DNA of 64,000 nt from Halococcus qingdaonensis (GTDB taxonomy: Archaea > Halobacteriota > Halobacteria > Halobacteriales > Halococcaceae), in assembly GCF_024508235.1 (NCBI RefSeq), contig NZ_CP101943.1:2515112-2579111 (forward strand), read 5' to 3'. The notes beneath the pieces are model-generated. The model was not told where the DNA came from, did not search any database, and saw only the letters and a program-made list of their open reading frames with translations. Position numbers and translations under genes: made by a program. Each line of letters begins with the position of its first letter. The first letter of the stretch is position 1. Positions 26,906 to 62,353 of this stretch are shown one piece after another.

Positions 26906-28546
26906 CTATTCGCCGGTCGCGTTCGTCGGGAGATCGACGCGCAGCGTGTGCGTGCCCGACTCGAACGTCCGCGTGTCGCTATCGACGTAGTTCTGGAGCT
27001 GTTCGGTCGCGGGCGACCAGACCGGTCCGGGTTTCGTGTAGCTCACCAGCGAGAGCGTCACCGACTCGCCGTCGGCGACCGTGAACGTCGTCGTCGCCGT
27101 GCCGTTCTCGACGGTGACGTTCCGACTCTCGATGCGATCGGCGAGCGCCGCGTCGGTGGTGAACTCGCCGTCGGAGCGCCGCGTGATCGGCTCCTCGCTG
27201 CTACCGTGTGCGAACCGGAGCAGCTCCTCGTTCGTGTAGGTGCCGTTCGGCCCTTGCAGCTGCTCGATCGGCTCGCCGCGCACGAGATCGACCTGGTAGT
27301 AGGTCGTTTCGTCGCTGCCGAGGAAGCCAAGCGCGTCTCGTTCGGCGTTCGTGAGGCTGCCGTCGTCGAGCGCCTCGCTCAGCGCCACGAGCTGGTCGTC
27401 GGAGAGATCGCCGCCCGCGATAGCGTCGGCGATCGCGGTGCGCTGCTCGTCGCTCAACCCATTGCCGGCGAGCGCGTCGGTGATGGCCGACGTCTTTGCG
27501 TCGGTGAGGCCGCTCGCGGCGAGCGTGCTGCTCACTCCGGAGACCTGCTCGTCCGAGAGTCCGCTGTCGGCGAGCGACGCGGCGACAGCCCCCGCGTCCG
27601 CACCGCCGTCCGCTCCGTTACCGCTGTCCGCGCTACCGCCGGCATCACCGCCTGCTTGCGCACCGTTGCCGTCACTGCCCGTTCCGACCCCGCTCGTTTC
27701 CGTTTCCGTCGAGGTGGTGTCGGTTTCGATCCCCGTTCTCGACGAATTGTCCGTCGTTTCGGTCGGGGCTGCGGTCGCCTCCGTTTCGCTCGGTGCGCTC
27801 GTTTCGGTGTCCGTCACGGTCGGTCCCGTAGTGCTATCGGTCGGGCTGGTCGTCCCCGCTTCCGTGTCCGTCGGCGCGGCCGTGGTCGTCGCCGTCGGCG
27901 TGTCGGTTCCGGTCGTCGCCGTCGGCTCCGGAGCACTCGTTTCGGTTGCGGTGGCCGTGTCCGTCTCGGTGGCCGTCTCCGTTTCCGTCGGCTGCTCGGT
28001 GCTGGTCGGCGTGCCCGTGCCTGCACCGGCAACTGTCAGCGTACCGGGCGTGGTTTCAGTGACGTCGTAGAGTCCGCCCGCCGAATCGCTGATTTCGTTG
28101 ACGTCGAGCGTGAGTGCACTTTCCCCGGTCGCGGTTCCATTAACCGTTACTGTCGCTACCGTAACACCATCCGCATCGCCGGAAAGCGCGTTGCCGAAGT
28201 ATATGACATCGAAACTCGCCGCCGAGCCGTCGTCAGTGATGTTGACGTTGCTGTCGGCGGGACTACCCGCTAGTTCGATGTTCGTTATCTCGCCGACCGA
28301 AGGGTTCGACAGTTCGATCGATGCGTTCGTCGTGCCGACACCATTGTCCGTGTTGTCGACGACGATGTCGTATGTCGCCATTTCACCAGCCGCGACCGTC
28401 GAGGATTGCGGCGAGAAGCTGACTGTCGTACTTCCGGCCGCGCTGGCCGTGAACGACACGGCCGCGCCCGCGGAGAGAAGCACGACCGTGACGAGGGCGA
28501 TGGTTGCAAGCGTTCGCTTCGAGGAACCGTGTGTGTCCTTACTCAT
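26906..28546 (-). CDS. secreted cohesin-like domain protein with Thr-rich linker and 17-residue repeats
   Basis: A 546-aa exported protein. Residues 1-37 form a signal sequence (RTLATIALVTVVLLSAGAAV). Residues about 38-172 resemble a type-I-like cohesin beta-sandwich (AGEMATYDIVVDNTDNGVGT, ASFDVIYFGNALSGDADG, VTVATVTVNGTATGESALTL). Residues 173-300 are a Thr/Glu/Ser/Pro linker, likely O-glycosylated. Residues 325-409 are five 17-residue repeats, then an Asn-glycosylation-rich C-terminal domain follows. No C-terminal TM or PGF motif is seen. It lies 57 nt downstream of, and in the same direction as, a dockerin-bearing protein, suggesting the two bind each other outside the cell. Confidence 0.75.
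   Translation of the reverse strand: MSKDTHGSSKRTLATIALVTVVLLSAGAAVSFTASAAGSTTVSFSPQSSTVAAGEMATYDIVVDNTDNGVGTTNASIELSNPSVGEITNIELAGSPADSNVNITDDGSAASFDVIYFGNALSGDADGVTVATVTVNGTATGESALTLDVNEISDSAGGLYDVTETTPGTLTVAGAGTGTPTSTEQPTETETATETDTATATETSAPEPTATTGTDTPTATTTAAPTDTEAGTTSPTDSTTGPTVTDTETSAPSETEATAAPTETTDNSSRTGIETDTTSTETETSGVGTGSDGNGAQAGGDAGGSADSGNGADGGADAGAVAASLADSGLSDEQVSGVSSTLAASGLTDAKTSAITDALAGNGLSDEQRTAIADAIAGGDLSDDQLVALSEALDDGSLTNAERDALGFLGSDETTYYQVDLVRGEPIEQLQGPNGTYTNEELLRFAHGSSEEPITRRSDGEFTTDAALADRIESRNVTVENGTATTTFTVADGESVTLSLVSYTKPGPVWSPATEQLQNYVDSDTRTFESGTHTLRVDLPTNATGE
27320..27574 (-). repeat. five tandem 17-residue coding repeats
   Basis: Within the cohesin-like protein, residues 325-409 divide into LADSGLSDEQVSGVSST, LAASGLTDAKTSAITDA, LAGNGLSDEQRTAIADA, IAGGDLSDDQLVALSEA and LDDGSLTNAERDALGFL. 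Consensus: hydrophobic, two small, turn, (S/T)(D/N)xx, then a short amphipathic helix. Probably a helical solenoid spacer. Confidence 0.85.
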
Positions 28547-28603
28547 TTTCGTCGTGTTTGGGGTGTTGTCGCACTGTGGTCCATACGTCGCATCTCGCGA
28601 GCG

Positions 28604-30763
28604 TCATTTCGAATCCGCCCATTTGGCGTACAGCGCCTGTGCGTCGGCCTGTGTGACCTTTCCTTCGCCGTTGAAGTCGAACGCATCGGGATTGTTCTTG
28701 ACCGCCGGATCGTCGAGGTTGTCGTACAGCGCCTGCGCGTCGGCTTTCGTCAGCTCGCCGTCGCCGTCGACGTCCTCGTATTTGCCGTCTTCGTCGAGGT
28801 CCTGCGGCGGGTTCTCGAACTCACCGACCGGCTCCGGACTGGCGGTGTACTCACCGCGCTCGACGATTGTCCCGCTCGCTCCAACGGCAACGTCGGGATA
28901 CGAACCCGTCGTGTCGAGAACGATCCCTTCGAGACCGTTGCTCGTCGGCGTCTCGTCGGATTGCCAGCCCGAGCCGGTGCGTTCGAGGACCGTCCCGCTG
29001 CTGCCGGCGGCCAACCCCTTCTTCCCTTCGCGGGTGATGGCGTTGAGCGTGTTCTGTCCGGCGTAGAGCTTCGTCCAGACCGAACCGTTGTACCGGAAGA
29101 TCGAGCCGTCGCCGCCCGCGACGTTGATCTCGTCTGAACTCACCGCGGCGACGTCGTACAGCCCGACGCTGCCGCCGCCGATGCCGATCTCCTCCCAACT
29201 GTCGCCACCGTTGGTCGTCTCGTACACCTTCGAGTTCGTATCGCAGATGTAGCCCGTGCTCTCGTCGATGAAGTCGAGTCCCTTCGCGCTGGAGCCACCG
29301 CCGGGCTTGACCGCCGATCCCCAGTCCATCCCGCCGGAGCCGTTCTTCGTCCCGGAGAAGAACTCGCCGGAGCCGTTGATCAGGAACACCGTCTCGGAGC
29401 CGGCCGCGCCGACGACCGCGATGTCCTCCCAGGTGCTAGATTTTCCCTCGGGTTTCGAGTAATCGGTCTTCGTCCCGCTCCCGACATCGTACTGGCCGAT
29501 GACGCCGCTGCCGCCGGCGAACCAGACGTGGTTGCCGTCGTCGGTGACGCCGGCCCCGGTGAGGGTGTTGCCCTGCGTCGTCGGCCCTTTCTCGATGACC
29601 GTCGTCCAACCCGTCGATCCCCGCTCCAGAACCCGCCCGCCACCGCCGACGGCGTACGGCCCCTGGCTCGAGAGAACCGTGTCGTTGAGCCCTTTCCCGG
29701 TCGGCGAACTCGCCTCGGTCCAGTTGGCCGAATCGGGTCGTGGCTTCCGTTCGGCCGGCGGATCGGCGGTGTACTCGCCGCGCTCGACGATCGTTCCGCT
29801 GGAGCCGACGGCCACGTCCGGGTAGCCTCCGGCGGTGTCGAGCGCCGCTCCCCGCAGCGTGTTCGTCGTCGGCGTCTCGACCTCGCTCCACGTACCGGGT
29901 CCGTTCCGTTCGTACACCCGACCGCCCGAGCCGGCGGCCAGCCCCATCTCCCCGTCACGATCGATGCCGTAGATGGTGTTCTGTCCGACTTTCAGCGGCG
30001 ACCACGTCGACCCGTCGTACCGGTATATCGTCCCGCTGCCGCCGGCCACGTTGACGTCCGATTCGCTCACGCTCGCCACGCCGTAGAGTCCGATGCTGCC
30101 GCCGTCGATGCCGATTTCTTGATAGCTACCGCCGTCGTCGGTCGTCTCGTAGACCTTCGTGCTCGTGTTCGAGATGTGCCCGACTGAACTACTGGCGAAA
30201 TCGATCCCTTTCATGCTGGAACCTGAGCCCGGTTTCTGGGCTTCTCCCCAATCCATCCCGCCGGAATCGTTTTTCGTCCCGTTGAGCACCTCGCCGGAGC
30301 CGTTGACGAGGTGGACGGTTTCGGATCCGGATTTCCCGGTGACTGCGAGGTCCTCCCAGGTGCTCGTCTTTCCCATCGGCGCGGAGTAGTCGGTGAGCTC
30401 TTCGTCGGCCACGTCGTACTGGCCGATCACGCCGCTGCCGCCGGCGAACCAGACGTGGTTGCCGTCGTCGGTCACGCCGGCTCCTTTCAGAGTGTTCGAC
30501 TCGACCGTCGGTCCCTTCGAGATAACGGTCTCCCAGCCGTCGTCACGGCGGGCGAGCACCAGTCCCCCGCTCCCGACGGCGTACGGTCCTTCGCTGGTCT
30601 GTACGACGTCATTCAGTGTCTTGCCCGTTGACGAGTCGGCCGCGGACCATGCCGACGCCTGTGCGCCGGCTGTCCCCGAGACCGCCGTCCCGACGCCGGC
30701 CGCGAGGGCCGCCGCGCCAGTGAGTTCCAGGAACCGTCGCCGGTTCCGGTTGATGTCCGTCAT
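28604..30763 (-). CDS. Tat-exported duplicated beta-propeller protein with C-terminal dockerin
   Basis: A 719-aa protein. The Tat signal NRNRRRFLELTGAAALAAG is followed by AGAQA. Two homologous blocks of about 300 residues (about 38-335 and 345-640) share GAGVTDDGNHVWFAGGSGVI and GYPDVAVGSSGTIVERGEYT-type blocks, with repeated VAGG/AAGSSG strand ends, like YCF48/BNR-type propellers. Residues 647-719 hold two EF-loop repeats (DVDGDGELTKADAQALY and DFNGEGKVTQADAQALY), the dockerin arrangement. Likely binds the cohesin-like protein encoded next. Confidence 0.82.
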   Translation of the reverse strand: MTDINRNRRRFLELTGAAALAAGVGTAVSGTAGAQASAWSAADSSTGKTLNDVVQTSEGPYAVGSGGLVLARRDDGWETVISKGPTVESNTLKGAGVTDDGNHVWFAGGSGVIGQYDVADEELTDYSAPMGKTSTWEDLAVTGKSGSETVHLVNGSGEVLNGTKNDSGGMDWGEAQKPGSGSSMKGIDFASSSVGHISNTSTKVYETTDDGGSYQEIGIDGGSIGLYGVASVSESDVNVAGGSGTIYRYDGSTWSPLKVGQNTIYGIDRDGEMGLAAGSGGRVYERNGPGTWSEVETPTTNTLRGAALDTAGGYPDVAVGSSGTIVERGEYTADPPAERKPRPDSANWTEASSPTGKGLNDTVLSSQGPYAVGGGGRVLERGSTGWTTVIEKGPTTQGNTLTGAGVTDDGNHVWFAGGSGVIGQYDVGSGTKTDYSKPEGKSSTWEDIAVVGAAGSETVFLINGSGEFFSGTKNGSGGMDWGSAVKPGGGSSAKGLDFIDESTGYICDTNSKVYETTNGGDSWEEIGIGGGSVGLYDVAAVSSDEINVAGGDGSIFRYNGSVWTKLYAGQNTLNAITREGKKGLAAGSSGTVLERTGSGWQSDETPTSNGLEGIVLDTTGSYPDVAVGASGTIVERGEYTASPEPVGEFENPPQDLDEDGKYEDVDGDGELTKADAQALYDNLDDPAVKNNPDAFDFNGEGKVTQADAQALYAKWADSK

Positions 30764-43338: not shown

Positions 43339-44115
43339 CTACTCGGTATCGACGGCTGCGTCGGCACCCGCTTCGTTTTCCCCATCGGTATCGAGCTCGC
43401 CACGTGCGTCCTGGATACGGCGTTCGGCTTCGTCGCGGTCCTCGGGATAGCCGACGTCGATGCGCCAGCCGTTCATCCGCACGGCGTCGATGGTGCGGCC
43501 CGATCGCAGGAGCAGATCGACGGCTTCCGAGAGCTCGTACTCGCCGCGCGCGGAGGGCTGGACGAGATGGCAGGCGTGGAAGATCGCGGGCGTGAACGTG
43601 TAGAAACCCGTGAGAACGAGGTTCGTCGGCGGTTCGTCGGGTTTCTCGATGACGTCGGTGACCTCACCATAGTCGTTGGTGTCGCAGACGCCGTACCTGT
43701 TGGCCTCCTCCATCGGGACCTCCTCGACGAGGAAGGCGGCGTCGGCACGGTCCTCGCGCTGGCGGTCGACGACGTCCGCGAGGTTCGCCTCGAAGACGTT
43801 GTCGCCGAGGATGAGCATGAAGTCGTCGTCGATGTGCTCCTCGACGGTGAGGAGGGCGTGGGCCAGTCCGGCCTGCTCGCGCTGGTGGGTGTAGGTGATC
43901 GGGATGCCGTCGAACTCGTCGCCGTAGTGCTCGATGATGACTTCCTTCTGGTAGCCGACGACGACGAGCAGTTCGCTCGCGCCGAGTTCGGCCAGCTGCT
44001 CGAAACAGTGCGTGAGGATGGGTTTGTCGTCGACCTCGACCATCCCCTTTGGCTTGTCCTCGGTCAGTGGCCGGAGGCGCGTGCCCTCGCCGGCGGCCAG
44101 CACGACGGCTTTCAT
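43339..44115 (-). CDS. aglF: sugar-1-phosphate nucleotidylyltransferase AglF
   Basis: A 258-aa protein MKAVVLAAGEGTRLRPLTED, with LAHALLTVEEHIDDDFMLIL, GDNVFEANL and WRIDVGYPEDRDEAERRI; single domain without beta-helix. Matches AglF/glucose-1-phosphate uridylyltransferase of the haloarchaeal N-glycosylation pathway. ATG 44115 chosen; the upstream in-frame 40 codons are not conserved. An AT-rich box near 44143 fits a leaderless promoter. Confidence 0.8.
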   Translation of the reverse strand: MKAVVLAAGEGTRLRPLTEDKPKGMVEVDDKPILTHCFEQLAELGASELLVVVGYQKEVIIEHYGDEFDGIPITYTHQREQAGLAHALLTVEEHIDDDFMLILGDNVFEANLADVVDRQREDRADAAFLVEEVPMEEANRYGVCDTNDYGEVTDVIEKPDEPPTNLVLTGFYTFTPAIFHACHLVQPSARGEYELSEAVDLLLRSGRTIDAVRMNGWRIDVGYPEDRDEAERRIQDARGELDTDGENEAGADAAVDTE

Positions 44116-44155
44116 GGGCCTACAACGCGGGGGCCGTCGCAAATATCTGTCGCCA

Positions 44156-44638
44156 CTCGACGATAAACCGGTAACGACGATAGCAATCGTTGCTATTAAC
44201 GAAGACGAGATGGCGACGAAATACGCTGAGCTCATGGCATGGGCCGCAGACCTCGAACGCTACTTCCTGCGCAAGCGCGTCCAGTCGGGTGTTGATCGGG
44301 CACAACGAGCAGGCAAGTGGACCGGACGGCCACCCTATGGATTTACGACCCACGATGGCTACCCCGTCGTCGAACCCGAGGACTACCTCCGAATGCAGGC
44401 TGCTCTCGAACTGCTCGAAACTGATCCCAATCAGACGCTTACGTCCGTCGCTACTCACGCTGGTATTGCGAAGTCATCGCTCTCTCGGATACGTAACGAC
44501 CCTGAACGCCGACAACTCTATCTCTACGGTGAAGCATCCGATGAACGCGTCGAAGAGGCTGTCAACGCTGCTGGCATTGAATCCGAGAGCGAACTTGCGG
44601 AACTGCGTAAACGTATTGAGACACTTGAAGAACGATGA
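44156..44638 (+). pseudogene. serine recombinase, N-terminally truncated
   Basis: About 150 codons encode the tail of a resolvase-type recombinase: VTTIAIVAINEDEM, then LERYFLRKRVQSGVDRAQRA, GKWTGRPPYGF and an HTH-like SVATHAGIAKSSLSRIRN. The catalytic N-terminal domain with Ser nucleophile is missing; upstream DNA is the aglF promoter. ATG 44210 might still start a short protein. A 7-bp palindrome ATAGCAA-TCG-TTGCTAT lies at 44180-44196. Marks the start of the accessory region. Confidence 0.75.
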
Positions 44639-44737
44639 TCCAGATACCGAACCAGCCACTAACCCAGCCAGCTACCGAGGAACAGTCCGTTGTCAATTTC
44701 AAAGTTCGTTGATAGCTGGCCGTGGAGTCACTTTGCG

Positions 44738-45106
44738 CTAGACTTCCTCGGGCTTGGTGATCTCGTGCGTCCCGGATGGTCCCTGATCCTCGGATGATCT
44801 GGACGGAGCAATCAGACACGTCGTGTTGGCGGGTTCGCCACCAACCACCTCGAATGTGTGTTCGGTCTCGGGAGGTGTGACGATTGTGTCACCGGCTTCT
44901 GCGTGGAACTCTTCGCCCTCGACTACCCACTGCATCTCGCCGGTCCGCACGAAGATGATGTGCGTTTCCTCGTGCGTGTGTGGCTCGCTGGCTTTGTCCG
45001 GGCCGTGAGCGCGCACGTCTACTTCACAATCTTCAAGCACGATGTGTTCGTCCTCGTCCTCGCTTCCGATGAACGGGTGGTAGGCTGTTGTGTCGGGTTC
45101 AGTCAT
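44738..45106 (-). CDS. cupin domain protein
   Basis: A 122-aa single-domain cupin: PHTHEETHIIFVRTGEMQWV (motif 1 with His/His/Glu metal ligands) and AGDTIVTPPETEHTFEVVGG (motif 2). Small metal-binding beta-barrel; may be an isomerase, dioxygenase or sensor. ATG 45106 preferred to GTG 45115. Confidence 0.82.
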   Translation of the reverse strand: MTEPDTTAYHPFIGSEDEDEHIVLEDCEVDVRAHGPDKASEPHTHEETHIIFVRTGEMQWVVEGEEFHAEAGDTIVTPPETEHTFEVVGGEPANTTCLIAPSRSSEDQGPSGTHEITKPEEV

Positions 45107-45299
45107 TGTTTTCACCTGTTTGCTCGCGCACTACTCGTCAGCGTTCGTGTCGTGTAGGATTAACCTTTCTGCTGGGATTGGATATCCTCGACACAGGGAT
45201 CGAGATGACTTCGGCGAACCGGGACTCGGAACGGATGATCGGTTTTCCAGGAGACGACACCCTTCGTGAGAGAATAATATTTGAGGCCGCCATTGCTCC

Positions 45300-46469
45300 A
45301 TGAGATCATCGATGAGTACGAACGGCTCGGCGTCTACGGCGCGAGATGCTGGCAGCGAAGAACAGGACGTCACTCCCTTGGAGCTGTTTTTCGATCTGGT
45401 GTTCGTGTTCGCGTTCACTCAGGTTACCGGCTTCCTCGTCGAGAACCTCACGTGGACCGGTATGGCGCGTGGCGCGGCGCTGTTCGCGGCACTGTGGTGG
45501 GCGTGGGTCACCTACTCGTGGCTCACTGGTGCAGTGCCCGCCGAGGAGCGCCTCCCCGCACGGCTGGTGATTCTCACCGCGATGGTGGCCATGCTCGTCG
45601 TTGCGCTCGCGGTCCCTGACGCGTTCGGCGACGACGCGGTACTGTTCGGGGGCGCTTACTTCGTCGTTCGACTGTTGCACGTCGCACTCTACGCGGTCGC
45701 CACCCCGCCTGAAACCCACGACGCGGTCCTACGAGCTGCACCGGGATTCTTGGGTGGACCGGCGCTGCTCGTTCTCGCTGGGTTCCTCGACGGGCCGCTT
45801 GCAGCCGTCCTCTGGGTCGTGGCACTCGCTGTCGATTACGGTATCGTGTTCGTCCGCGGTGTCGAGGGGTTTCACGTCACCGTCGGACACTTCGTCGAAC
45901 GTCACCGGCTCGTGCTCATCATCGCGCTGGGCGAGTCGCTCGTCGCCATCGGCGTCGGAGCCGAAGGGTTGAACCTCAGCGCTTTGGTCGTTCTCGCGGC
46001 GCTGTTCGGCATCGTTCTCGTTATCACGCTGTGGTGGCTCTACTTCGATTACGTCGTGCTCGCCGCAGAACAGCGCCTCGCGGGAGAGAGCGGCCACCAA
46101 CAAGCGATACTGGCGCGCGATTCGTACAGCTACATCCACCTGTCGATGGTCGGGAGCATCATCTTCATCGCACTCGGAATCGAGCAGACGATCGCCCATG
46201 CCGGCGAGCCGCTCGGGACAGTCGCCGCCGTCGCGCTCTTCGGTGGCGGTGCGCTCTATCTGCTCGGCCACAATGCCTTCCGATACCGCGACCATGGCAC
46301 CGTCAGTGCTCTCCGACTCGTCGTGGCGGTCGTTGCTCTCGTGTTGCTCATCGTGGCCGTGCAGGTCCCAGCTATCGTTGCCCTCGCGGTTCTCACCGCG
46401 CTATTCGTCGGGCTCGCGGCCTACGAGACGGTGCGATCCGAACACCGGGACAGACTCCGTGCAGGCTGA
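45300..46469 (+). CDS. low temperature requirement protein A (LtrA) family
   Basis: A 389-aa protein with about 11-12 TM helices. N-terminal signature VTPLELFFDLVFVFAFTQVT, RLLHVALYAVATPP, and ERHRLVLIIALGESLVAIGV, typical of LtrA. First seen in Listeria cold growth; biochemical role unknown. Confidence 0.9.
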   Translation: MRSSMSTNGSASTARDAGSEEQDVTPLELFFDLVFVFAFTQVTGFLVENLTWTGMARGAALFAALWWAWVTYSWLTGAVPAEERLPARLVILTAMVAMLVVALAVPDAFGDDAVLFGGAYFVVRLLHVALYAVATPPETHDAVLRAAPGFLGGPALLVLAGFLDGPLAAVLWVVALAVDYGIVFVRGVEGFHVTVGHFVERHRLVLIIALGESLVAIGVGAEGLNLSALVVLAALFGIVLVITLWWLYFDYVVLAAEQRLAGESGHQQAILARDSYSYIHLSMVGSIIFIALGIEQTIAHAGEPLGTVAAVALFGGGALYLLGHNAFRYRDHGTVSALRLVVAVVALVLLIVAVQVPAIVALAVLTALFVGLAAYETVRSEHRDRLRAG

Positions 46470-46617
46470 CCGACGAGCCGCTCCGGGAGATCCAGCCCCG
46501 AACGTAGTTCGCGAGCGAACGGTCCTCTCGCTGGCTAACTTCGGGCAACGGTCGCTGATCAGATCCAGAAAGGAAACGGGCGAACGATTATGGCCATCCA
46601 CTGTGAAAGAGAGTGGT

Positions 46618-46926
46618 ATGACAGACTTCGTCTCGGTGGCGACGACCGACGAACTTGACGACGGCGAGGGAACCGTCGTCGAAACGAACGGCCACACGAT
46701 CGCACTCTTCAGAGTCGAGGGCGATTTTTACGCCATCGGCAACGAGTGTACGCATGAGGGTGGACCGCTCGGAGAGGGGGACCTCGATGGAACGACCGTC
46801 ACCTGTCCGTGGCATGGCGCACGGTTCGACGTCACCTCCGGCAAGGTGCTCGAACCGCCCGCCGACGATTCGGAACCGGAATACGAGGTCCACATCGACG
46901 GTGATACGGTTCGCGTCGGTGTTTGA
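46618..46926 (+). CDS. Rieske 2Fe-2S ferredoxin
   Basis: A 102-aa protein with both Rieske motifs, CTHEGGPLGEG (CxH) and CPWHGARFDV (CxxH). Small soluble electron carrier of dioxygenase/NirD type. Occurs between LtrA and the TauE exporter; could serve an oxygenase in the region. Confidence 0.9.
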   Translation: MTDFVSVATTDELDDGEGTVVETNGHTIALFRVEGDFYAIGNECTHEGGPLGEGDLDGTTVTCPWHGARFDVTSGKVLEPPADDSEPEYEVHIDGDTVRVGV

Positions 46927-47017
46927 GCCGCCCGGAGAACTCCTTAGAGACGCTTTCTCTTCAGCCAACGCTCGCAGCCTCCATTCGCAACGGTAGTGCT
47001 CGCTCGACAGTCGCTCC

Positions 47018-47797
47018 TCAGACCCCGACACTGGTAGAGATGAGCCGAATCCCGATAATGGCCAGCAAGACCAACACGAATTCGTCGATGTACCGATCCG
47101 GCAGCAGGTGGCGAACCCGTCGGCCGCTCTCCACACCGACCAGCCCGACGAGTGCCGCTCCAACCGAAAGCCACACGAGCGCTCCTGTGCCGTAGAGATC
47201 GAATGCCCATGCCGCGCCGACGCGGATCGACGAAATACCGAGGAAGATCAACGCGAGAACTCCCACGAAGATCGACCGCTGGAGATCGAGGCTATCGAGA
47301 TAGGCGACCATCGAGACGCCGACGTTACTCGCTCCGAAGATCAGCCCGCTTCCGAAGCCGATCCCGAGTTGGGCGTTCGGGTGTCGTTCGAAGTAGTTCG
47401 ACGTGACGTATCCCTTGCCGGGGACTGGAACCGTATCCTGCGTGAACGCGACGTACCCCAACGTAAACACACCGAGTGCGAACGTCAGTATCGTCGTCGG
47501 AATCCACTGGAGTATCGCCATTCCGACGATGGTTCCAACGGCAGCCGCCACGATGAACGACGCAAACCGACGCCCGCAGGTCCGTAATCGGTCACGGTCG
47601 AGCTCACGTACGAGAGGGACGTTCGAAACAAACACCGGGATGATCATGAGGACGACGGCCTGCTGTGGACCGAGAACGGCCGCCGACCCGACGGTTCCGA
47701 TGAGTGCATAGCCGAATCCAGTGATGCCGGTCACGGTTCCGGCGAAGAACACGATGATCGCAATGAGAACGAGGACGTCCACCGAAAAGCCAACCAT
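47018..47797 (-). CDS. TauE/SafE family exporter (DUF81)
   Basis: A 259-aa membrane protein with about eight TMs in two repeats: FFAGTVTGITGFGYALIGTV and FGSGLIFGASNVGVSMVAYL show the family GxxxGxxxG-type repeats. Family members export sulfite, sulfonates or organosulfur anions. Substrate unknown. Confidence 0.85.
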   Translation of the reverse strand: MVGFSVDVLVLIAIIVFFAGTVTGITGFGYALIGTVGSAAVLGPQQAVVLMIIPVFVSNVPLVRELDRDRLRTCGRRFASFIVAAAVGTIVGMAILQWIPTTILTFALGVFTLGYVAFTQDTVPVPGKGYVTSNYFERHPNAQLGIGFGSGLIFGASNVGVSMVAYLDSLDLQRSIFVGVLALIFLGISSIRVGAAWAFDLYGTGALVWLSVGAALVGLVGVESGRRVRHLLPDRYIDEFVLVLLAIIGIRLISTSVGV

Positions 47798-47914
47798 CTC
47801 GCTACGAACCTCCTACCCGGGCGTTCTCCAATCTATCATAACGTTTCGCGCAGTCGTGGCCGACTGTGCAACCTGACTGACCAAGACGTTCCAAGCACTG
47901 ATTTGTCAGTTCAG

Positions 47915-48589
47915 TCACCGATTGGATCCTTCCTCGCTCGAAAAGCCGATCTCTGCGTGCGTTCCATCGCAGAACGGTTTGGTCCCCGAAGCGCCACAGC
48001 GGCACAGAGCGGCATCGCTGTCCCGGACCGTCGAGTCGTCGTCCGTCCCGTGGAGTTCGAACGCGCCGTCGAGGAGGACTGGTCCATCCGGTTTCGGGAC
48101 CACCTGCAGCGTGCCTCCATCGTCTACGTCTTCAGCTCCCTCGTGGTCTTTCGGTATCGAACTATCGGCCTCGAAGTCGGCCTCCACGTGACTGTTGTCA
48201 CAGAGTGGTTTGTTATCCGACAGTCCACAGCGACACAGCGCGACCCGTGTGTCCGCGAGCAGCGTTTCGTCGTTGGGTGTCGTGACCTCGATGTCACCGT
48301 GGAGATAGAGCGGTCCATCGGGTGCCACTGTGACCGAGTTCTCGTCCGGGATGGTTTCCGTGGGACCATCGTCCGTTCGCTCGAAATGGAGTGCACCGGT
48401 GGGACATGCCGTGATGACATCCGCTAGCTCGTCGGCGTCGGCGTTGTCAGGGTCGATCCATGGCCGCTTGTCGGGGTCGAACACCTCGGGCAGCCCACGG
48501 ACGCACTCTCTGACGTGAATGCACCGCTCGACGTCGTAGCTAACCTCGATCTCCTCGCCGGAATATTGGTGAATGTCTTCTTCCATCAT
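47915..48589 (-). CDS. divergent ferredoxin plus two CDGSH iron-sulfur domains
   Basis: A 224-aa protein. N-terminal (4Fe-4S mono-cluster binding) domain with CIHVRECVRGLPEVFDPDKR and ITACPTGAL; then two CDGSH-type 2Fe-2S motifs, CRCGLSDNKPLCDNSH and CRCGASGTKPFCDGTH. Probably an electron or Fe-S carrier. The three-domain architecture is known in prokaryotes. About 290 bp of AT-rich, gene-free DNA lies upstream to 48882. Confidence 0.9.
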   Translation of the reverse strand: MMEEDIHQYSGEEIEVSYDVERCIHVRECVRGLPEVFDPDKRPWIDPDNADADELADVITACPTGALHFERTDDGPTETIPDENSVTVAPDGPLYLHGDIEVTTPNDETLLADTRVALCRCGLSDNKPLCDNSHVEADFEADSSIPKDHEGAEDVDDGGTLQVVPKPDGPVLLDGAFELHGTDDDSTVRDSDAALCRCGASGTKPFCDGTHAEIGFSSEEGSNR

Positions 48590-48882
48590 GAATCACTCTC
48601 GGTTAGTGCTGTACTCAGGGTACCGAAGCATGTTAGCATTGGGCTTTTACGCTTTCCATCACTGCGATCAACCCATATCGAACGTTTCCAAATACAATAA
48701 AAACATCATTTTAGATCGATAATAGTGTCTGCGTTCAACGGACGAATCGCTCCGTCCAATGGGCGATGCAATCGAATACTGGCTGGAGGAATGAGTTCAC
48801 GATGGGCGGTAACCACGGAGTCACCCGCTGTTTCGGGTGTTAGCAGAGATATAAGTGGCTCCGCCGCGTTAGACATGACATA

Positions 48883-49851
48883 ATGTCGCCGACAACACCG
48901 GGGCTTCATCACGTGACCGCCATTGCGAGCGATCCGCAACGCACCGCCGAGTTCTACGTCGAAACACTCGGTCTGCGCTTCGTCAAGAAGACCGTCAACC
49001 ATGACGACAAGTACACCTATCACCTCTATTTCGGCGACAGCGAAGGCACGCCCGGGACGAACATCACGCTCTTCCCGTGGGGCGAGCGCGGTCGTTCGGG
49101 ACAGTTCGGCGACGGACAGACCCGAACGACGGCATATTTCGTTCCCGACGGCTCGCTCGATTACTGGCGCGAGCGACTGGAATCGCACGGTATCTCGGTC
49201 GATGGCCCGACCGAACGGTTCGGCGAGACCGTCATCGAATTCGACGATCCGGACGGCATCACGCTCGCACTCGTCGCCACGGACGATGCACCGGACGGAC
49301 AGCCGTGGGATGATAGCCCGGTTCCCACAGAGCACCAGTTGCGCGGCTTTCACAGCGTCACCCTCGCGGTTAGCGAAATCGATCCAACCGCCACGGTGCT
49401 AACTGACGGGCTTGGGTACGAATTCGAAGTCGAAGAGAACGGTCGTCACCGCTATCGCTCCGACGCTGGCGGCGGCCCGGGCTCTATCATCGATCTCGTC
49501 GAAACCGATCATGGACGGGGACGAATGGGCGTCGGCACGGTCCACCACGTCGCCTACAAGGCCGAGGATACGGACGAACAGGAGCAGTGGCGCGAGCAAC
49601 TGAGCGAACAGGGGCTTCGCGTCACCGACATCGTCGACCGGGTGTACTTCAAGTCGATCTACTTCCGCGAACCGGGCGGCGTCCTGTTCGAGATCGCCAC
49701 GATGGAACCCGGCTTCACTGCCGATCAGAGCCAGGACGAACTCGGCAGAGACCTCGCGCTACCGGAGTGGTTAGAGAACGAACGCGACGAAATCGAATCG
49801 CGGCTTCCGTCGTTCGAGAGTCCATCCGTCGACCCCGATTCCGACCGATAA
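48883..49851 (+). CDS. ring-cleaving dioxygenase, MhqO/LinE-like (VOC fold)
   Basis: A 322-aa two-domain vicinal-oxygen-chelate protein: GLHHVTAIASDPQRTAEFYV, HSVTLAVSE, VHHVAYKAEDTDEQEQWREQ, and YFREPGGVLFEIATMEPGFT with the Fe-ligand Glu. Bacterial MhqO enzymes open hydroquinone rings under quinone stress. A TATA-like GATATAAGT at 48848-48856 suggests a leaderless transcript, and GACAT-A-ATGTC spans the start. A deleted relic of a second copy is at 55541. Confidence 0.87.
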   Translation: MSPTTPGLHHVTAIASDPQRTAEFYVETLGLRFVKKTVNHDDKYTYHLYFGDSEGTPGTNITLFPWGERGRSGQFGDGQTRTTAYFVPDGSLDYWRERLESHGISVDGPTERFGETVIEFDDPDGITLALVATDDAPDGQPWDDSPVPTEHQLRGFHSVTLAVSEIDPTATVLTDGLGYEFEVEENGRHRYRSDAGGGPGSIIDLVETDHGRGRMGVGTVHHVAYKAEDTDEQEQWREQLSEQGLRVTDIVDRVYFKSIYFREPGGVLFEIATMEPGFTADQSQDELGRDLALPEWLENERDEIESRLPSFESPSVDPDSDR

Positions 49852-49963
49852 CGGAACATCCGCTTGCCGTACATCCTCGGATTCAGTGATTTCCTCTTCA
49901 CTTGGGTTTTGAGCCCCATCGAATGACATATCTGGCTCCGCAAGTCGTGTGATTATAGCAGCT

Positions 49964-50833
49964 TCACTTGTGCCACTCGTGATTTTGAAGATACGTGGCG
50001 AGCGAGTGGAACTGGTGGTCGAACTCCGTTTCGAGTGCGTCGATATCGGCCGTGTATCCCTTCTCGTTGAACCATTCGTACATCGTGACGAGGTCTTCCG
50101 GGAGCCGTTCTCGGGCCTCGTCGAGCGGAACGTGAGTTGCCTCGACGTCGGTATCGAGCACGTCCGTGAACGTCGCAGCCATGCTTTCGAGCGTCTGCTC
50201 GTCACTAGCGATTTCGATGGTCTCACCGACGTATTCGTCCGGCGTTGCGAAGACATGGGCTGCCACCGCACCGTAGTCGGAGACGTCGAGCAGCTGCAAG
50301 CTCACTCCCTCGTTCAGGGGGAGCGCGAGCCTTCCGTTCTGGATGTCTTCGCGGTTCCCCTCGAGATTCCCCATGAAATAGACCGGGCGAAGGATCGTCG
50401 CAGGGAGGTCGAGATCGGCGATTCGCTGTTCGACGCGATACTTCGAGACGAAGTGTTCGACTGCCTCGGTACGGTCGGCTCCGCCGACCGAGCTGTAGAC
50501 GAAGTGGTCGATGTCGCTCTCGGCGGCGACTTCGGCGATGTTCGTGCCTTGCTCGATTTCGCCCTCGAAGCCGGCGATGAAGTAGTTCGTGACGGCGAAC
50601 ACTGCATTGACGTCCTCGACCGCAGTCCGAAGACTCTCCTTGTCACCGAGATCGCCCTCGACGACCGTGACACCGCGGTCCGCGAGTGCTTGGGCCTTCT
50701 CACTCGACGCATCACGAGTCAATCCACGAACAGCGAATTCGTCCTCCGTATCGTCGTTCGCTGCAAGTAGTTGATCGACGACTGCGCCTCCCTGATTGCC
50801 GGTTGCACCGACGACGAGAACAGTTGTGGACAT
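49964..50833 (-). CDS. NmrA-like NAD(P)-binding protein
   Basis: A 289-aa atypical SDR: TTVLVVGATGNQGGAVVDQL, VEGDLGDKESLRTAVEDVNA, AAESDIDHFVYSSVGGADRT, and LRPVYFMGN. NmrA/HSCARG/QOR2-like proteins sense NADPH or reduce quinones. The setting beside a quinone-cleaving enzyme favours a redox role, unproven. About 170 bp without genes follow before 51009. Confidence 0.85.
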   Translation of the reverse strand: MSTTVLVVGATGNQGGAVVDQLLAANDDTEDEFAVRGLTRDASSEKAQALADRGVTVVEGDLGDKESLRTAVEDVNAVFAVTNYFIAGFEGEIEQGTNIAEVAAESDIDHFVYSSVGGADRTEAVEHFVSKYRVEQRIADLDLPATILRPVYFMGNLEGNREDIQNGRLALPLNEGVSLQLLDVSDYGAVAAHVFATPDEYVGETIEIASDEQTLESMAATFTDVLDTDVEATHVPLDEARERLPEDLVTMYEWFNEKGYTADIDALETEFDHQFHSLATYLQNHEWHK

Positions 50834-51008
50834 GAGTGGTGGGTAGTGACGACGGGTTCTGTGCCCGTTCGTTCGTGGTCCGTACGTGGACTGCCAACGC
50901 CTTTGTTGTACTGGTTAACCGAAGGGAATCAGATGACACGCCTGATACCAGGTTCCGCGGTTGTCAGTCTCATCTTTTTATAGGGCGAGGGCGTGGTGTG
51001 AACCAACG

Positions 51009-52058
51009 ATGCTCTACGATCACTTCGCCGACCTCGAACTCCGAGTCGACGAGTACGACCTCGAACAGCACGAGCGGGACACGTCGAGTGGTTTCACCCG
51101 GACGACGACCGTCGTCTCGTTGCACGGCGACGGCGAAACCGGGCAGGGCGAGGATGTCACCTACGACAACGAGGCCCACTACACGCTTGACGATTCGCCC
51201 GAGGAATTCCCCGTCACGGGCGAATACACCCTCGACGAGTTCTCGGACCAGCTCTCCGAGGTCGATCTCTTCCTCGGGAACGAGCCGAACCAATCGATCT
51301 TCCGGAACTATCGGCGGTGGGCGTTCGAGAGTGCCGCGCTCGACCTCGCGTTGAAGCAGGCGGGAACGGACCTCGCCGACCGACTCGACCGCGAGTATAG
51401 TCCTGTGCGATTCGTCGTGAGCACGCGGCTTCAGGACCCACCGACGGGCGACCGCATCCGCGACTGGCTCGATCGCAACCCCGACCTCGAATTCAAACTC
51501 GACCCGACCTCGGACTGGACTGCCGAAGTCGTCGACCGATTGGCCGACACCGATTCGGTTCGTGCGCTCGACCTCAAAGGTCAGTACCATGGAACGACAG
51601 TGGACCAGCCCGCCGATCCCGACCTCTACGAACGGGTCGTCGAGGGCTTTCCGGATGCGCTCGTCGAGGACCCGGAACTGAACGACGACACGCGACCGCT
51701 ATTCGACGGCCACGAGGAGCGCGTGACGTGGGACTACCCGATTCGGAGCGTCGAGACCGTCGAAGATCTCCCGTGGGAACCCGAGTGGCTCAACATCAAG
51801 CCCTCGCGGTTCGGCTCCGTCGAATCGCTGCTCGATACGATCGATTACTGCCGGGAGAACGACATCGGAATGTTCGGTGGCGGTCAGTTCGAACTCGACG
51901 TCGGGCGCGAGCACATCCATGCGGTCGCATCACTGTTCTATCCGGACGCGCCGAACGACGTCGCACCGAAGGAGTACAACGCCCCCGAGCCAAGTAGCGG
52001 TCTTCCATCGAGTCCGCTTTCGCCACCGACGTCCTCACAGGGGCTCGAGTGGAAGTAA
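51009..52058 (+). CDS. enolase-superfamily-like protein
   Basis: A 349-aa protein. The N-terminal capping-like part has TTTVVSLHGDGETGQGEDVT and a helical AFESAALDLALKQAGTDLAD; barrel strands include LEFKLDPTS, VRALDLKGQY, DALVEDPEL, LNIKPSRFGSVESLLDTIDY and GGGQFELDVGREH. These resemble the mandelate-racemase/OSBS groups, but the usual KxK is KLD and metal ligands are not obvious, so activity is uncertain. First gene of a likely operon with Fe-ADH and BKACE. Confidence 0.7.
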   Translation: MLYDHFADLELRVDEYDLEQHERDTSSGFTRTTTVVSLHGDGETGQGEDVTYDNEAHYTLDDSPEEFPVTGEYTLDEFSDQLSEVDLFLGNEPNQSIFRNYRRWAFESAALDLALKQAGTDLADRLDREYSPVRFVVSTRLQDPPTGDRIRDWLDRNPDLEFKLDPTSDWTAEVVDRLADTDSVRALDLKGQYHGTTVDQPADPDLYERVVEGFPDALVEDPELNDDTRPLFDGHEERVTWDYPIRSVETVEDLPWEPEWLNIKPSRFGSVESLLDTIDYCRENDIGMFGGGQFELDVGREHIHAVASLFYPDAPNDVAPKEYNAPEPSSGLPSSPLSPPTSSQGLEWK

Positions 52059-52072
52059 ATGGGAATCGACGA

Positions 52073-53269
52073 ATGAGCCAGTACGATCGATTTCGATTCG
52101 AGTACCGTTCAGGTGTCCTCAAGTACGGAACGGGTTGTGTCGGAGAGCTTTCGGAGGAGCTAGAAAGGCAGGGGTTTCGGAGCGGACTCGTCGTCAGCGG
52201 ATCGACTGTTGGAGCTACAGCAGAAGTAATCGATCCGGTAATCGATGGACTTGATGAAGAACTGGCGGGCGTGTTCGCCGAGACAACACCTGAAAAACGA
52301 CTCGAAACCGCCTACAAGGGCCTCGAAGCGATGGAAGACAACGATGCTGATGTCCTCGTTAGCCTCGGTGGCGGCAGCAGTCTCGATGTCGCCAAGGTCA
52401 TTAGTGTCCTCGCTGCGGACGACCGCGATCCAACGGTCGTTGGTCAGGAACTCGCTGAGACCGGATCGATTTCTATACCGTCCGGTTCGCTACCACCCAT
52501 CGTTGCCGTTCCCACCACGTTGGCCGGTGCCGACCAATCTATCGTGGCAGGCGTGACCGCCACGCCGAAATCCGGACTCAACGAGGCTGTGAGTGGCGGG
52601 ATCTCCGATCCACGACTGATGCCGCGAGCGATCTTCTACGATCCTGCACTGTTCGCCACCACGCCGAAGCGGATTCTCGCCGCGTCTGCTATGAACGGGT
52701 TCGACAAAGGACTCGAAACGATCTATGCTCGAAACGCGACGCCAATAACGGATGCGACGGCCGCTCAGGGGCTCAGTCTGCTCGAAGGTAGTCTCAAAGA
52801 GCTCGGAGAACAGTCTATCTCCGAGGAAGTTCTCGAACCGATCGTCGAAGGACTACTGCTCGTCCAGTACGGCATTTCGAGACGTGACGGAACAACACTC
52901 TCGATTATCCATGCGTTCGGGCACGGGCTAACCCGTACCTACGATGTCCAGCAAGGAGCTGCACACGGTATCGTTGCACCACACGTGCTCAGCTACCTCT
53001 TCGAGAATGCCGATGGACGACGCGAGCTACTCGCGGAGGCACTCGTCGGTGACGGTTCAGCGGCCGCCGAGGAAATCGTCGAGTCCGTGGAACGAATTCG
53101 CGATGCACTGGATCTTCTGTCACGGCTCAGGGATGTCGATGGGCCGGAGCCGTCTGCATTCCCCGACGTGGCTGAATCGATACTCACGGACTCGTTCATG
53201 GAGAACAGACCACGCGATTTCGATCCGACAGTAAGCGATATCGAAGAAGTACTACGGGATGCGTATTAA
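52073..53269 (+). CDS. iron-containing alcohol dehydrogenase family protein
   Basis: A 398-aa protein from ATG 52073 (MSQYDRFRFEYRSG). VLVSLGGGSSLDVAKVISVL binds NAD(P); GADQSIVAGVT; metal-site region AMNGFDKGLE and HAFGHGLTRTYDVQQGAAHG. The two later His ligands are present, but the His usually four residues after the Asp is Glu here. Probably oxidises an alcohol or reduces an aldehyde in the pathway of the flanking genes. 14 nt after the enolase-like gene. Confidence 0.83.
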   Translation: MSQYDRFRFEYRSGVLKYGTGCVGELSEELERQGFRSGLVVSGSTVGATAEVIDPVIDGLDEELAGVFAETTPEKRLETAYKGLEAMEDNDADVLVSLGGGSSLDVAKVISVLAADDRDPTVVGQELAETGSISIPSGSLPPIVAVPTTLAGADQSIVAGVTATPKSGLNEAVSGGISDPRLMPRAIFYDPALFATTPKRILAASAMNGFDKGLETIYARNATPITDATAAQGLSLLEGSLKELGEQSISEEVLEPIVEGLLLVQYGISRRDGTTLSIIHAFGHGLTRTYDVQQGAAHGIVAPHVLSYLFENADGRRELLAEALVGDGSAAAEEIVESVERIRDALDLLSRLRDVDGPEPSAFPDVAESILTDSFMENRPRDFDPTVSDIEEVLRDAY

Positions 53270-53316
53270 TTATCGCCTGTATTAACTAAAATATATATAT
53301 ATTCAACGGGAGTAGT

Positions 53317-53610
53317 ATGGGTCGCAAAGAGACAGCCACGCAATCTCATGACGCCATAGTAACCACGTGTCTTCACTGTCCACGAATCGTTTTATTCAGC
53401 ACTACCGAACATCTGCTTGTGACCTGCCCATATCTCGACTACCGCGATGAAGCCGGTGAACGCTCGTTCGACGAGCCGCGCGCGTACTGCACAGCAGCTA
53501 CCACGTTCGTCCAGCCGATGCGCGCCGACATCTGTAACGACCGCTACGATCTCGACCACGAGACCGACTGTGAGATATACCGCGAAGCAGAGGCCGAAAA
53601 TGGGATATGA
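53317..53610 (+). CDS. Cys-rich hypothetical protein
   Basis: A 97-aa protein with about seven Cys, including TTCLHCPRIV, VTCPYLDY, RAYC and ADICNDRYDLDHETDCEIY. The pattern suggests an Fe-S or Zn site. Not recognised. The interval before it has TATA-like ATATATATATA (53292-53302). It overlaps the BKACE gene by 11 nt, so the two probably work together. Confidence 0.72.
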   Translation: MGRKETATQSHDAIVTTCLHCPRIVLFSTTEHLLVTCPYLDYRDEAGERSFDEPRAYCTAATTFVQPMRADICNDRYDLDHETDCEIYREAEAENGI

Positions 53611-54442
53611 GGCGTATCTAAACGGCGAACCCGTCGTCATCACCGCCGCGCTGACCGGCGGCGTTCACGGCAAGGAGGCGAATCCGAACCTTCCGGAAAC
53701 ACCGGAAGAGATCGGGAGCGCAGCCGCCGACGCGGAGTCCGCCGGTGCCGCTATCGTTCACCTCCACGCACGACGAGAAAACGGTGAACGTGCCTTTTCG
53801 ACCGAACGTTTTCAAGCAGTGACGGACGCTGTGCGTGAACGGACCGATGACGTCATCATCCAGCACTCGACCGGCGGGACTGGCGCACCGATCGAACAAC
53901 GGCGGCAGTCGCTCCACACCGATCCGTCACCGGAGATGGCATCGCTCGATATGGGACCGCTGAATCGTTACGACCACCTGACCAGCGAGAACACGCGCGC
54001 AACCATCGACGCACTCTACGACGAAATGGCTGACCGCGGCATCAAGCCGGAACTCGAAGTGTTCAACGATGGTCACCGTAACGAAGTCCACGGACTGCTC
54101 GAGAGACGCGATCTCGACGACCCCGTGTACACGACGCTCATCTTCGGATCGGGAACGCTCACGCGCCCACGCCCACGGAATTTCCTGAATGCCATCGATG
54201 ACCTCCCCGACGGCGCGATGTTCAACACGCTTGGTTTCGGCCCGCATCAGCTTCCCTTTACGACGATGGGGATTCTCTTCGGTGGACACGTCCGTGTCGG
54301 CCTCGAGGACAACGTCTATTACCGACGCGGCGACCTCGCGGAGAGTACTGCACAACTCGTCGGGAGAACCGCAGACATCGCCGGAACCCTCGGTCGGGAG
54401 GTCGCAACGCCGACGCAGGCACGGCGGATCCTCGGCCTCTGA
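53600..54442 (+). CDS. 3-keto-5-aminohexanoate cleavage-type enzyme (BKACE, DUF849)
   Basis: A 280-aa TIM-barrel protein: VVITAALTGGVHGKEANPNL, AAIVHLHARRENGER (HxH Zn ligands), DVIIQHSTGGTG, EVFNDGHRNE, and GHVRVGLEDNVYYRRG. BKACE enzymes condense a beta-keto acid with acetyl-CoA to give acetoacetate plus a CoA ester. Substrate differs among members. ATG 53600 (MGYEAYLNGE) chosen. Confidence 0.88.
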   Translation: MGYEAYLNGEPVVITAALTGGVHGKEANPNLPETPEEIGSAAADAESAGAAIVHLHARRENGERAFSTERFQAVTDAVRERTDDVIIQHSTGGTGAPIEQRRQSLHTDPSPEMASLDMGPLNRYDHLTSENTRATIDALYDEMADRGIKPELEVFNDGHRNEVHGLLERRDLDDPVYTTLIFGSGTLTRPRPRNFLNAIDDLPDGAMFNTLGFGPHQLPFTTMGILFGGHVRVGLEDNVYYRRGDLAESTAQLVGRTADIAGTLGREVATPTQARRILGL

Positions 54443-54459
54443 TTGCCGAGCGTGGTGTG

Positions 54460-54831
54460 TTAGTCAGATCCCATGTTGTTGGCTGTGGGTTCCTGGACCC
54501 ACTCCTCGGCCCATGCCTCGATTTCGTCGAAGACGGGACAGAGCGATGTCCCTTTCTCTGTCAGCGCGTAGTACGTCGCCACGGGGGCGTCCTCTTCGAG
54601 TCGGCGCGTGATGAACCCCGTCTCTTGAAGATCACTCAGGACGCGTGACAGCGTTCGAGAGCTCGCGTCAGTGGAGCGCTTGAGTTCGTTGAACCGCTTT
54701 TCACCCTCCTGGAGGTCGTGCAGCACGATGAGTCGCCACTGCGACCCGATCTGCTCCAACGAATCGATGACCGAACACGCTCCCTCGTCGTACAGGCCGT
54801 CCACTTCCTTCTGCGCCTTGTTCACTGCCAT
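54460..54831 (-). CDS. HxlR-type winged-helix regulator
   Basis: A 123-aa protein: CSVIDSLEQIGSQWRLIVLH, FNELKRSTDASSRTLSRVLS, and LEEDAPVATYYALTEKGTSL, the HxlR/DUF24 fold. Several relatives (YodB, CatR, HypR) sense quinones or aldehydes through one N-terminal Cys; here Cys19 lies at that position (GACSVI). Divergent from doxX at 55076, with a palindrome between. Confidence 0.88.
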   Translation of the reverse strand: MAVNKAQKEVDGLYDEGACSVIDSLEQIGSQWRLIVLHDLQEGEKRFNELKRSTDASSRTLSRVLSDLQETGFITRRLEEDAPVATYYALTEKGTSLCPVFDEIEAWAEEWVQEPTANNMGSD

Positions 54832-54897
54832 GAGATGCTACCTAGACTACGATCTTCCACACACATATAGGTTCGCATCCGAATCTGGTTACAAAAT

Positions 54898-54912
54898 GAT
54901 ACTGCCAGTATC
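54898..54912. promoter_or_regulatory. 15-bp palindrome, candidate HxlR operator
   Basis: GATACTG-C-CAGTATC, perfect 7-bp arms. It lies just upstream of a TATA-like CCTATATGTG (about 54866-54875, reverse strand) for the HxlR gene and about 165 bp before doxX. A second similar imperfect dyad, GGTACTG...GATACC, is at 54993-55009 after an ATTATAAGT box (54966). Confidence 0.55.
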
Positions 54913-55075
54913 CCATCTGTCTCCGGATAACACCCATACAACCTGGTGTCACTGATGACAGCAAGATTATAAGTAGGTTCCAGAACGAACTAGGTACTGT
55001 AGTGATACCGAATACTGCTACCGTGACTGTTGCACAACCCGACAATCATCCGATCACACCGGGGGTGAGAGCCTA

Positions 55076-55498
55076 ATGGCAATCGATGCTGGACTGGGAG
55101 CCATCGTGTTCCTAATCGCGCGTATTCTCTTCGGTGGACTGTTCATATATCAGGGCCTCAACCACTTCCTGAATACCGATGCGATGGCCGAGTATGCCGA
55201 GTTCAAGAACGTGACCGCGGCGCGATTCGGTGTTCTCGCCTCGGGTGGACTGCTCGTACTCGGCGGACTCGGTATCCTCCTCGGCGTGTATCCAGCAATC
55301 GCCGCAGGACTACTCGTGCTGTTCCTCCTCGTCGTGACACCACAGATGCACGACTTCTGGGCCGTATCAGAGGACCAACAACAAGACGAGATGACGAGCT
55401 TCATCAAGAACGTCGAACTCCTCGCTGCCTCGTTGATCTTCCTCGCTCTCAGCAGTGAGACGTGGGCCTATGCACTGGGCATTGGGCTCGGGCTATAA
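55076..55498 (+). CDS. DoxX family membrane protein (CatD-like context)
   Basis: A 140-aa four-TM DoxX protein: ARILFGGLFIYQGLNHFLNT, VTPQMHDFWAVSEDQQQDEM, FIKNVELLAASLIFLALS. In Bacillus, DoxX-type CatD pairs with a ring-cleaving dioxygenase CatE under HxlR regulators; here the downstream dioxygenase is deleted. Likely quinone/thiol stress protection. Confidence 0.87.
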   Translation: MAIDAGLGAIVFLIARILFGGLFIYQGLNHFLNTDAMAEYAEFKNVTAARFGVLASGGLLVLGGLGILLGVYPAIAAGLLVLFLLVVTPQMHDFWAVSEDQQQDEMTSFIKNVELLAASLIFLALSSETWAYALGIGLGL

Positions 55499-55540
55499 TA
55501 GAGCGAGAGAACTCCGTTCCACAACTACCTAAGACAGCAC

Positions 55541-55732
55541 ATGAATAACGAAACAAGCGGACTTCACCACGTAGTGTCCATCGAAACCAACAAACCGGGC
55601 TTCACTTGTGACAAATCATTTACAATACTGGGAACAAGGCTAAGGCTTTCGTCACGGTTAGAGAGTGGACAAGGTATGTTCGAACAGCACCTTCCCGAGA
55701 TCGAATCAGCTCGCATACCGGAGGCACACTAA
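55541..55732 (+). pseudogene. internally deleted ring-cleaving dioxygenase
   Basis: A 63-codon frame beginning MNNETSGLHHVVSIETNKPG and ending FEQHLPEIESARIPEAH. The first 11 residues match the start of the 322-aa dioxygenase at 48883 (TTPGLHHV), and the rest matches its end (EIATMEPGFTADQS and EWLENERDEIESRLPSFES). About 240 central residues, including both metal sites, are missing. Still in frame, with possible small point changes. Confidence 0.78.
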
Positions 55733-55733
55733 C

Positions 55734-56384: not shown

Positions 56385-56440
56385 GAACTGAATGAGAAGA
56401 GATAACCGTCGTTGCTAGTCAGTTGGCAAGCACTGATCAC

Positions 56441-56827
56441 ATGGTTTCACGAGAAGTCGAGGAGTTGATCGCCGACGCGCCTCTGAGTGCCCACCTCGCC
56501 ACCGCAGATGAGAATCGACCACACGTCGCACCCGTCTGGTATGGCTATCGTGACGGCGTGCTGAGCGTGCTCACTGGTGACAAGAAATTGGCCAATATTC
56601 GGTCGAATCCGCGTGTCGCCGTCTCGATCGAAAAACAAGGCGAGCACGGTCCTGAATGGTCGGTTACGCTACTTGGGACCGCCACCGTCATCGAGGATGC
56701 CGAACGAGCGCGGACCGCTCGCGAACGCGTGTTCGGCAAATATCGGGAGTTCGATCCCGAAACCGAGGATGAACGGGGGACGTTGGTCGAAATCGAAGTC
56801 GCCTCGGCGACGAGCGGGCGGTATTGA
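56441..56827 (+). CDS. pyridoxamine 5'-phosphate oxidase family protein (split-barrel flavoprotein)
   Basis: A 128-aa protein, MVSREVEELIADAPLSAHLA, RPHVAPVWYGYRDGVLSVLT, KLANIRSNPRVAVSIE, typical FMN/F420-binding split barrel. ATG 56441 preferred to TTG 56423. Could reduce quinones or nitro compounds; cofactor not determinable. Confidence 0.85.
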   Translation: MVSREVEELIADAPLSAHLATADENRPHVAPVWYGYRDGVLSVLTGDKKLANIRSNPRVAVSIEKQGEHGPEWSVTLLGTATVIEDAERARTARERVFGKYREFDPETEDERGTLVEIEVASATSGRY

Positions 56828-62349: not shown

Positions 62350-62353
62350 GGAT

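Follow-up and report, generated by a model that had tools for sequence, protein, structure and literature searches.

A Probable Private Cohesin–Dockerin Pair Holding a β-Propeller Protein at the Surface of Halococcus qingdaonensis

The window analyzed here, a 64,000-nt stretch of contig NZ_CP101943.1 (positions 2,515,112–2,579,111) of the haloarchaeon Halococcus qingdaonensis, contains two adjacent genes for exported proteins that very probably form a private cohesin–dockerin pair, made of a surface-held socket and a plug-in propeller. The first gene encodes a 719-amino acid (aa) protein with a tandem β-propeller and a C-terminal dockerin; the second, 57 nt downstream on the same (minus) strand, encodes a 546-aa protein whose first domain has a predicted cohesin fold (table 1). 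That the two are cognate partners is supported by co-occurrence, adjacency, co-divergence, a natural cassette exchange, and a co-fold, and we infer that the window dockerin physically binds the window cohesin. The most likely role of the pair is to hold the propeller protein at the cell surface.

The Dockerin and the Cohesin

Both open reading frames (ORFs) and the gap between them are as described in the initial annotation, which had also pointed to two Ca loops at the end of the 719-aa protein. These loops, DVDGDGELTKAD and DFNGEGKVTQAD, are present within a region matched by the Dockerin_1 profile (PF00404; E-value 1.4e-7, 32.0 bits against a curated cut-off of 22.9). The first loop is entirely canonical, and in the joined-chain model described below each loop is followed by a helix (residues 21–29 and 53–72 of that chain), as in two-loop dockerins. 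Both repeats carry the motif TxADAQALY (TKADAQALY and TQADAQALY). Internal symmetry allows binding in two orientations in other dockerins (PMC8063739), and because the motifs of the two repeats are nearly identical, the window dockerin would be able to bind in both orientations, as type I dockerins do. The remainder of the protein consists of a twin-arginine translocation (Tat) signal, matched by the NCBIfam models TAT_signal_seq (E 0.062) and formate_TAT (E 0.0026), and of the propeller, a duplicated structure as proposed initially, with halves 66% identical across 295 aa. Single-unit propeller relatives without a dockerin are common among haloarchaea.

The first domain of the 546-aa protein, which the initial annotation had called cohesin-like, gave no significant match in direct Pfam, NCBIfam, or PDB sequence searches, residues 38–172 included, but its predicted structure is that of a cohesin. 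With an alignment of 30 relatives, AlphaFold2 produced a model with a mean predicted local distance difference test score (pLDDT) of 95.8 and a predicted template modeling score (pTM) of 0.89. All Foldseek matches listed for this model were cohesins, among them 4ums (E 5.8e-10) and the archaeal cohesin 2xdh from Archaeoglobus fulgidus (E 3.4e-9). VIA-align likewise returned 1g1k (Z 15.7, root mean square deviation 2.0 Å over 130 residues) and 1ohz (Z 15.2), and its first 48 PDB rows were exclusively cohesins, including that of A. fulgidus, rather than the unrelated Ig-like domains that would have spoken against a cohesin. Among the 30 relatives, four give sub-threshold matches to Pfam Cohesin (best E 0.026), and two homologous domains from other haloarchaea fall just under the cut-off (E 1.5e-4 and 2.3e-4). 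Because of the model confidence, the structural matches, and these two homologs, the assignment of an all-β jelly-roll cohesin fold is firm as a prediction, and we therefore class the domain as a cohesin by fold and not by profile.

Evidence That the Two Proteins Are Partners

The cohesin region alone (first 172 residues) was used as a query against 60 relatives, with no reference to dockerins. It gave 27 matches, including that of the window itself, and a dockerin lies within 1.5 kb in 19 of them, against none of 25 control loci containing the propeller and none of 11 containing the C-terminal domain of the 546-aa protein. In a sample of 194 genomes of Halobacteria, this cohesin family and dockerins each occur in 87, with both present in 81 genomes, only the cohesin in 6, only the dockerin in 6, and neither in 101 (Fisher P = 1.8e-39, a value that overstates independence because the genomes share kinship). 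The two genes are mostly adjacent in these genomes, so that the arrangement is common in Halobacteria and not merely represented by scattered archaeal examples, as had been assumed. The window genome itself (2.70 Mb, single contig, 95% completeness) contains one cohesin of this kind, and a search for further dockerins, as initially proposed, found only the one borne by the propeller.

The sequences of the two partners also diverge together. Over 40 adjacent pairs, the Mantel correlation is 0.77, the maximum reached in 10,000 permutations being 0.29. Particular dockerin and cohesin types recur in combination: TQADAQALY with VENTDxGIGT, VDVVDVQKLF with GVGAYDFTV, VNVGDAQALF with GVGAAEL/EF, and DYDDI with APxGxxGxx. 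At loci with several cohesin proteins, the cohesin encoded by the following gene is the one predicted from the dockerin type in 22 of 24 tests, for an expectation of 9.8, the tests being partly dependent because sister loci are included.

A natural exchange within Halococcus provides a further line of evidence. In a comparison with the corresponding locus of H. thailandensis JCM 13552, DNA identity drops to 37–52% within a cassette that comprises dockerin repeat 2, the intergenic gap, the signal, and the cohesin, whereas it is about 90% over most of the propeller and about 87–100% in the remainder of the gene beyond the cohesin. One border of this cassette falls between the dockerin repeats and the other within the final cohesin strand. 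The low identity being limited to the cassette, the partner halves changed jointly, leaving cargo and stalk as they were. Judging from its motifs, the H. thailandensis cassette is of a different specificity type: the window has TQADAQALY where H. thailandensis and a second Halococcus genome (G004) have RIDYDDIVTL, and the cohesin of this latter type is 27% identical to that of the window.

Co-folding of the two domains, also suggested initially, was carried out on a joined chain. Since both genes share a reading frame, reading the lone TGA as Gly gives a single chain of 262 residues, containing the dockerin, the signal, and the cohesin. With 101 aligned rows, AlphaFold2 modeled this chain, which represents the cognate pair only, with a pLDDT of 85.7 and a pTM of 0.76; 207 of the 262 residues (0.79) are folded, and a linker spanning residues 73–123 or so is disordered. 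We estimate that, without any defined placement of one domain relative to the other, the pTM would be about 0.54, and the value obtained thus implies a confident placement of the dockerin on the cohesin in this model. A comparison of the fused model with the PDB returned cohesin matches only.

Taken as a whole, these results confirm what the initial annotation had observed and support its interpretation. Of the two-component extracellular scaffold that it proposed, the cognate pair stands; the term scaffold does not, because only one cohesin is present in the downstream protein, which is better viewed as an anchoring receptor.

Surface Anchoring

In the mechanism that we propose, the 546-aa protein would be exported and retained at the cell surface, displaying its cohesin on the Thr-rich stalk, a feature noted initially and borne out by a Thr content of 39% in residues 173–290. 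The propeller protein would leave the cell folded, through the Tat pathway, and its Ca2+-stabilized C-terminal dockerin would dock into the cohesin of its neighbor, resulting in a noncovalent display of the propeller on the cell.

Which partner sits at the surface is suggested by a survey of 50 cohesin proteins without dockerin and 165 dockerin-bearing proteins. A C-terminal hydrophobic segment is found in 25 of the former, 4 of which also have a PGF motif, the mark of archaeosortase substrates in haloarchaea, and in none of the latter, which designates the cohesin side as the surface side. For the window protein, attachment could involve the C-terminal domain, and our guess is that this domain binds the polysaccharide wall of Halococcus. 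A second copy is encoded in the window genome (G000:C1:1530996-1531391, L175), internal in an exported protein of about 610 aa. The view that the domain is always a terminal anchor was rejected given its internal position in other Halococcus proteins, and its confinement to Halococcus is weakened by the similar end of a Halomicroarcula scaffold.

It may also be that binding is real but that the cohesin protein is released, the complex being soluble and secreted. We regard such a release as unlikely, while giving it real weight, since neither the window protein nor its Halococcus relatives have a C-terminal membrane segment or a PGF motif. On the other hand, membrane anchors end half of the cohesin-only proteins of other haloarchaea, as seen above, and the recurrence of the Halococcus C-terminal domain in other exported proteins fits a common attachment module.

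Weighing the Pairing

Several observations weigh against a surface-held private pair. In the search with the 30-relative cohesin alignment, PDB cohesins are the top matches, yet with E-values of only 0.26–0.39, and none of the 30 aligned domains exceeds the cut-off of PF00963. Position 5 of the second dockerin loop is an unusual Glu. The co-divergence test removes shared descent incompletely; in the co-fold, the partners are covalently joined, and known complexes may have been part of what AlphaFold2 learned. Finally, neither a membrane anchor nor one of the sortase type is found in the window cohesin protein, whose C-terminal domain is internal, not terminal, in other exported Halococcus proteins.

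Haloarchaeal dockerins have been interpreted as substrate-binding (PMC10963439, PMC13260240). Accordingly, the window dockerin might be a stand-alone, Ca2+-dependent module that binds a substrate or matrix, next to an unrelated adhesin with a cohesin fold, and the 6 of 87 dockerin genomes without a detectable cohesin of this type would agree with such a function. Adjacency, co-occurrence, co-divergence, and the joint exchange of repeat 2 and cohesin are however unexpected for unrelated modules, making this explanation very improbable. Even less credible is that the true partner of the dockerin is another cohesin, of another cell or another kind, while the adjacent one serves otherwise: Pfam-type cohesins do occur in 73 of the 194 haloarchaeal genomes, mainly at other loci, but the window genome has none and has a single cohesin of the present family, and in 22 of 24 cases the type of a dockerin correctly indicates which cohesin the following gene encodes. 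We thus retain the private pair, with the propeller plugged into a surface-held cohesin.

Table 1. Features of the Cohesin–Dockerin Locus (positions in the window)
Feature	Position	Strand	Basis
Dockerin-bearing cargo gene, 719 aa	28604..30763	(-)	Two propeller units between a Tat signal and a C-terminal dockerin
Twin-arginine signal RNRRRFLELTG..., residues 1-37	30653..30763	(-)	NCBIfam and sequence
Tandem β-propeller (Ycf48/BNR-like), residues 38-642	28838..30652	(-)	Two units, 66% identical
Dockerin, residues 653-719	28607..28807	(-)	PF00404 E 1.4e-7 and alignment
Exchange cassette (~620 bp)	28050..28670	(-)	Dockerin repeat 2, intergenic gap, signal, and cohesin
Cohesin-bearing anchor gene, 546 aa	26906..28546	(-)	ORF, sequence, predicted fold
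Hydrophobic export signal, residues 1-36	28439..28546	(-)	Sequence
Predicted cohesin domain, residues 37-175	28022..28438	(-)	AlphaFold2 pLDDT 95.8; best Foldseek and VIA matches
Thr-rich stalk and Gly/Ala/Asp-rich linker	27647..28021	(-)	39% Thr, residues 173-290
Four short repeats (GLSDEQ...-like), residues 317-405	27332..27598	(-)	Sequence; conserved in Halococcus homologs
C-terminal domain, residues 406-546 (candidate wall-attachment module)	26909..27331	(-)	Common to other exported Halococcus proteins

The Wider Haloarchaeal System

Other haloarchaeal species have multicohesin scaffolds and dockerin-bearing enzymes. We had considered that Pfam misses haloarchaeal cohesins altogether, an idea dropped in view of the 73 genomes that exceed its cut-off. 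Dockerin cargoes in relatives include S8 peptidases, penicillin amidase, GMC oxidoreductase, and PrpD-like, rhamnosidase-like, PhoX-like, sugar dehydrogenase, and 3-keto-disaccharide hydrolase proteins. In Halococcus genome G004 (contig 1), a tri-cohesin protein that also has a dockerin (L072:7649-9274) is surrounded by a run of dockerin enzymes of about 30 kb (L072/L073), whose cargoes comprise 3-keto-disaccharide hydrolases, sugar dehydrogenases, a multicopper oxidase, and a ThuA-like protein, and which looks like a complete multienzyme scaffold locus. In Halomicroarcula rubra and Haloarcula pellucida, a four-gene row (L094:1197-15127 and L096:1860-15258) encodes a cargo, two cohesin–cohesin–dockerin proteins, and a three-cohesin protein, with dockerin types that fit the cohesins of the next gene. 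We slightly favor a general, modular haloarchaeal surface assembly, in which the order of genes in the operon would be the order of assembly, the dockerin of every protein fitting the cohesin encoded next and the series ending in a surface cohesin, and in which specificity would be rewired through the repeat 2–cohesin cassette.

Some PhoX-like proteins bear a cohesin as well as a dockerin on the same polypeptide (L079:4215-6836, L080:5960-8581, and L090:4731-7385; Pfam was run on the first and third, the second being a close homolog), and it is conceivable that they self-chain. A gene for a membrane-anchored cohesin protein follows those of L079 and L080. Bacterial cohesin–dockerin–cohesin–dockerin proteins from metagenome-assembled genomes of Fraserbacteria and Bipolaricaulota (L132, L136, and L149) match the haloarchaeal profiles, for which a transfer between domains of life is possible. 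Elsewhere in the window, at positions 44000–64000, the G+C content drops from 0.64–0.70 to about 0.56–0.62; this part, with genes that include LtrA, TauE, Fe-ADH, BKACE, and a P-type ATPase, is possibly acquired DNA.

Comparison with Known Systems

Cohesin–dockerin pairs as such are known, and archaeal cohesins and scaffoldins of anaerobic methanotrophic archaea (ANME) have already been reported (PMC9012536). We found no description of haloarchaeal cohesin–dockerin operons in the open-access literature, and the haloarchaeal pair type, the cassette exchange, and the ordered chains appear to be undescribed. What were isolated haloarchaeal "dockerin" annotations would thereby become parts of a plug-and-socket system for surface display, which can be tested and which about 40% of the sampled haloarchaeal genomes possess. 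Such pairs offer salt-tolerant, orthogonal interaction modules, and the Halococcus exchange is a natural experiment that isolates specificity determinants.

With the type I pairs of the Clostridium thermocellum and C. cellulolyticum cellulosomes, the window pair shares the predicted cohesin fold and a Dockerin_1 domain with two EF-hand-like repeats of the same motif. It differs in that its cohesin is only about 14–20% identical to theirs and is missed by Pfam, and in its cargo, a propeller and not a cellulase. A cellulosome has a multicohesin scaffold and several polysaccharide-degrading enzymes with dockerins; since the protein has one cohesin and the genome no other, and since the sole dockerin of the genome sits on a propeller, the window pair by itself falls outside this definition. 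The hydrolases of Natronoglomus mannanivorans (PMC10963439) resemble the propeller protein by the presence of Dockerin_1 on exported haloarchaeal proteins, but their dockerin was taken as substrate-binding and cohesins are not mentioned. The scaffoldin-like proteins of ANME (PMC9012536) have several cohesins and a dockerin, as do some haloarchaeal relatives, whereas the window anchor has a single cohesin and the haloarchaeal family lies mostly under the Pfam cut-off. The cohesin (2xdh, a top Foldseek match with 20–23% identity) and dockerin of A. fulgidus are also archaeal and noncellulosomal; they come from another lineage with another cargo, while the window pair is part of an extensive, diversified haloarchaeal family in which several specificity types exist.

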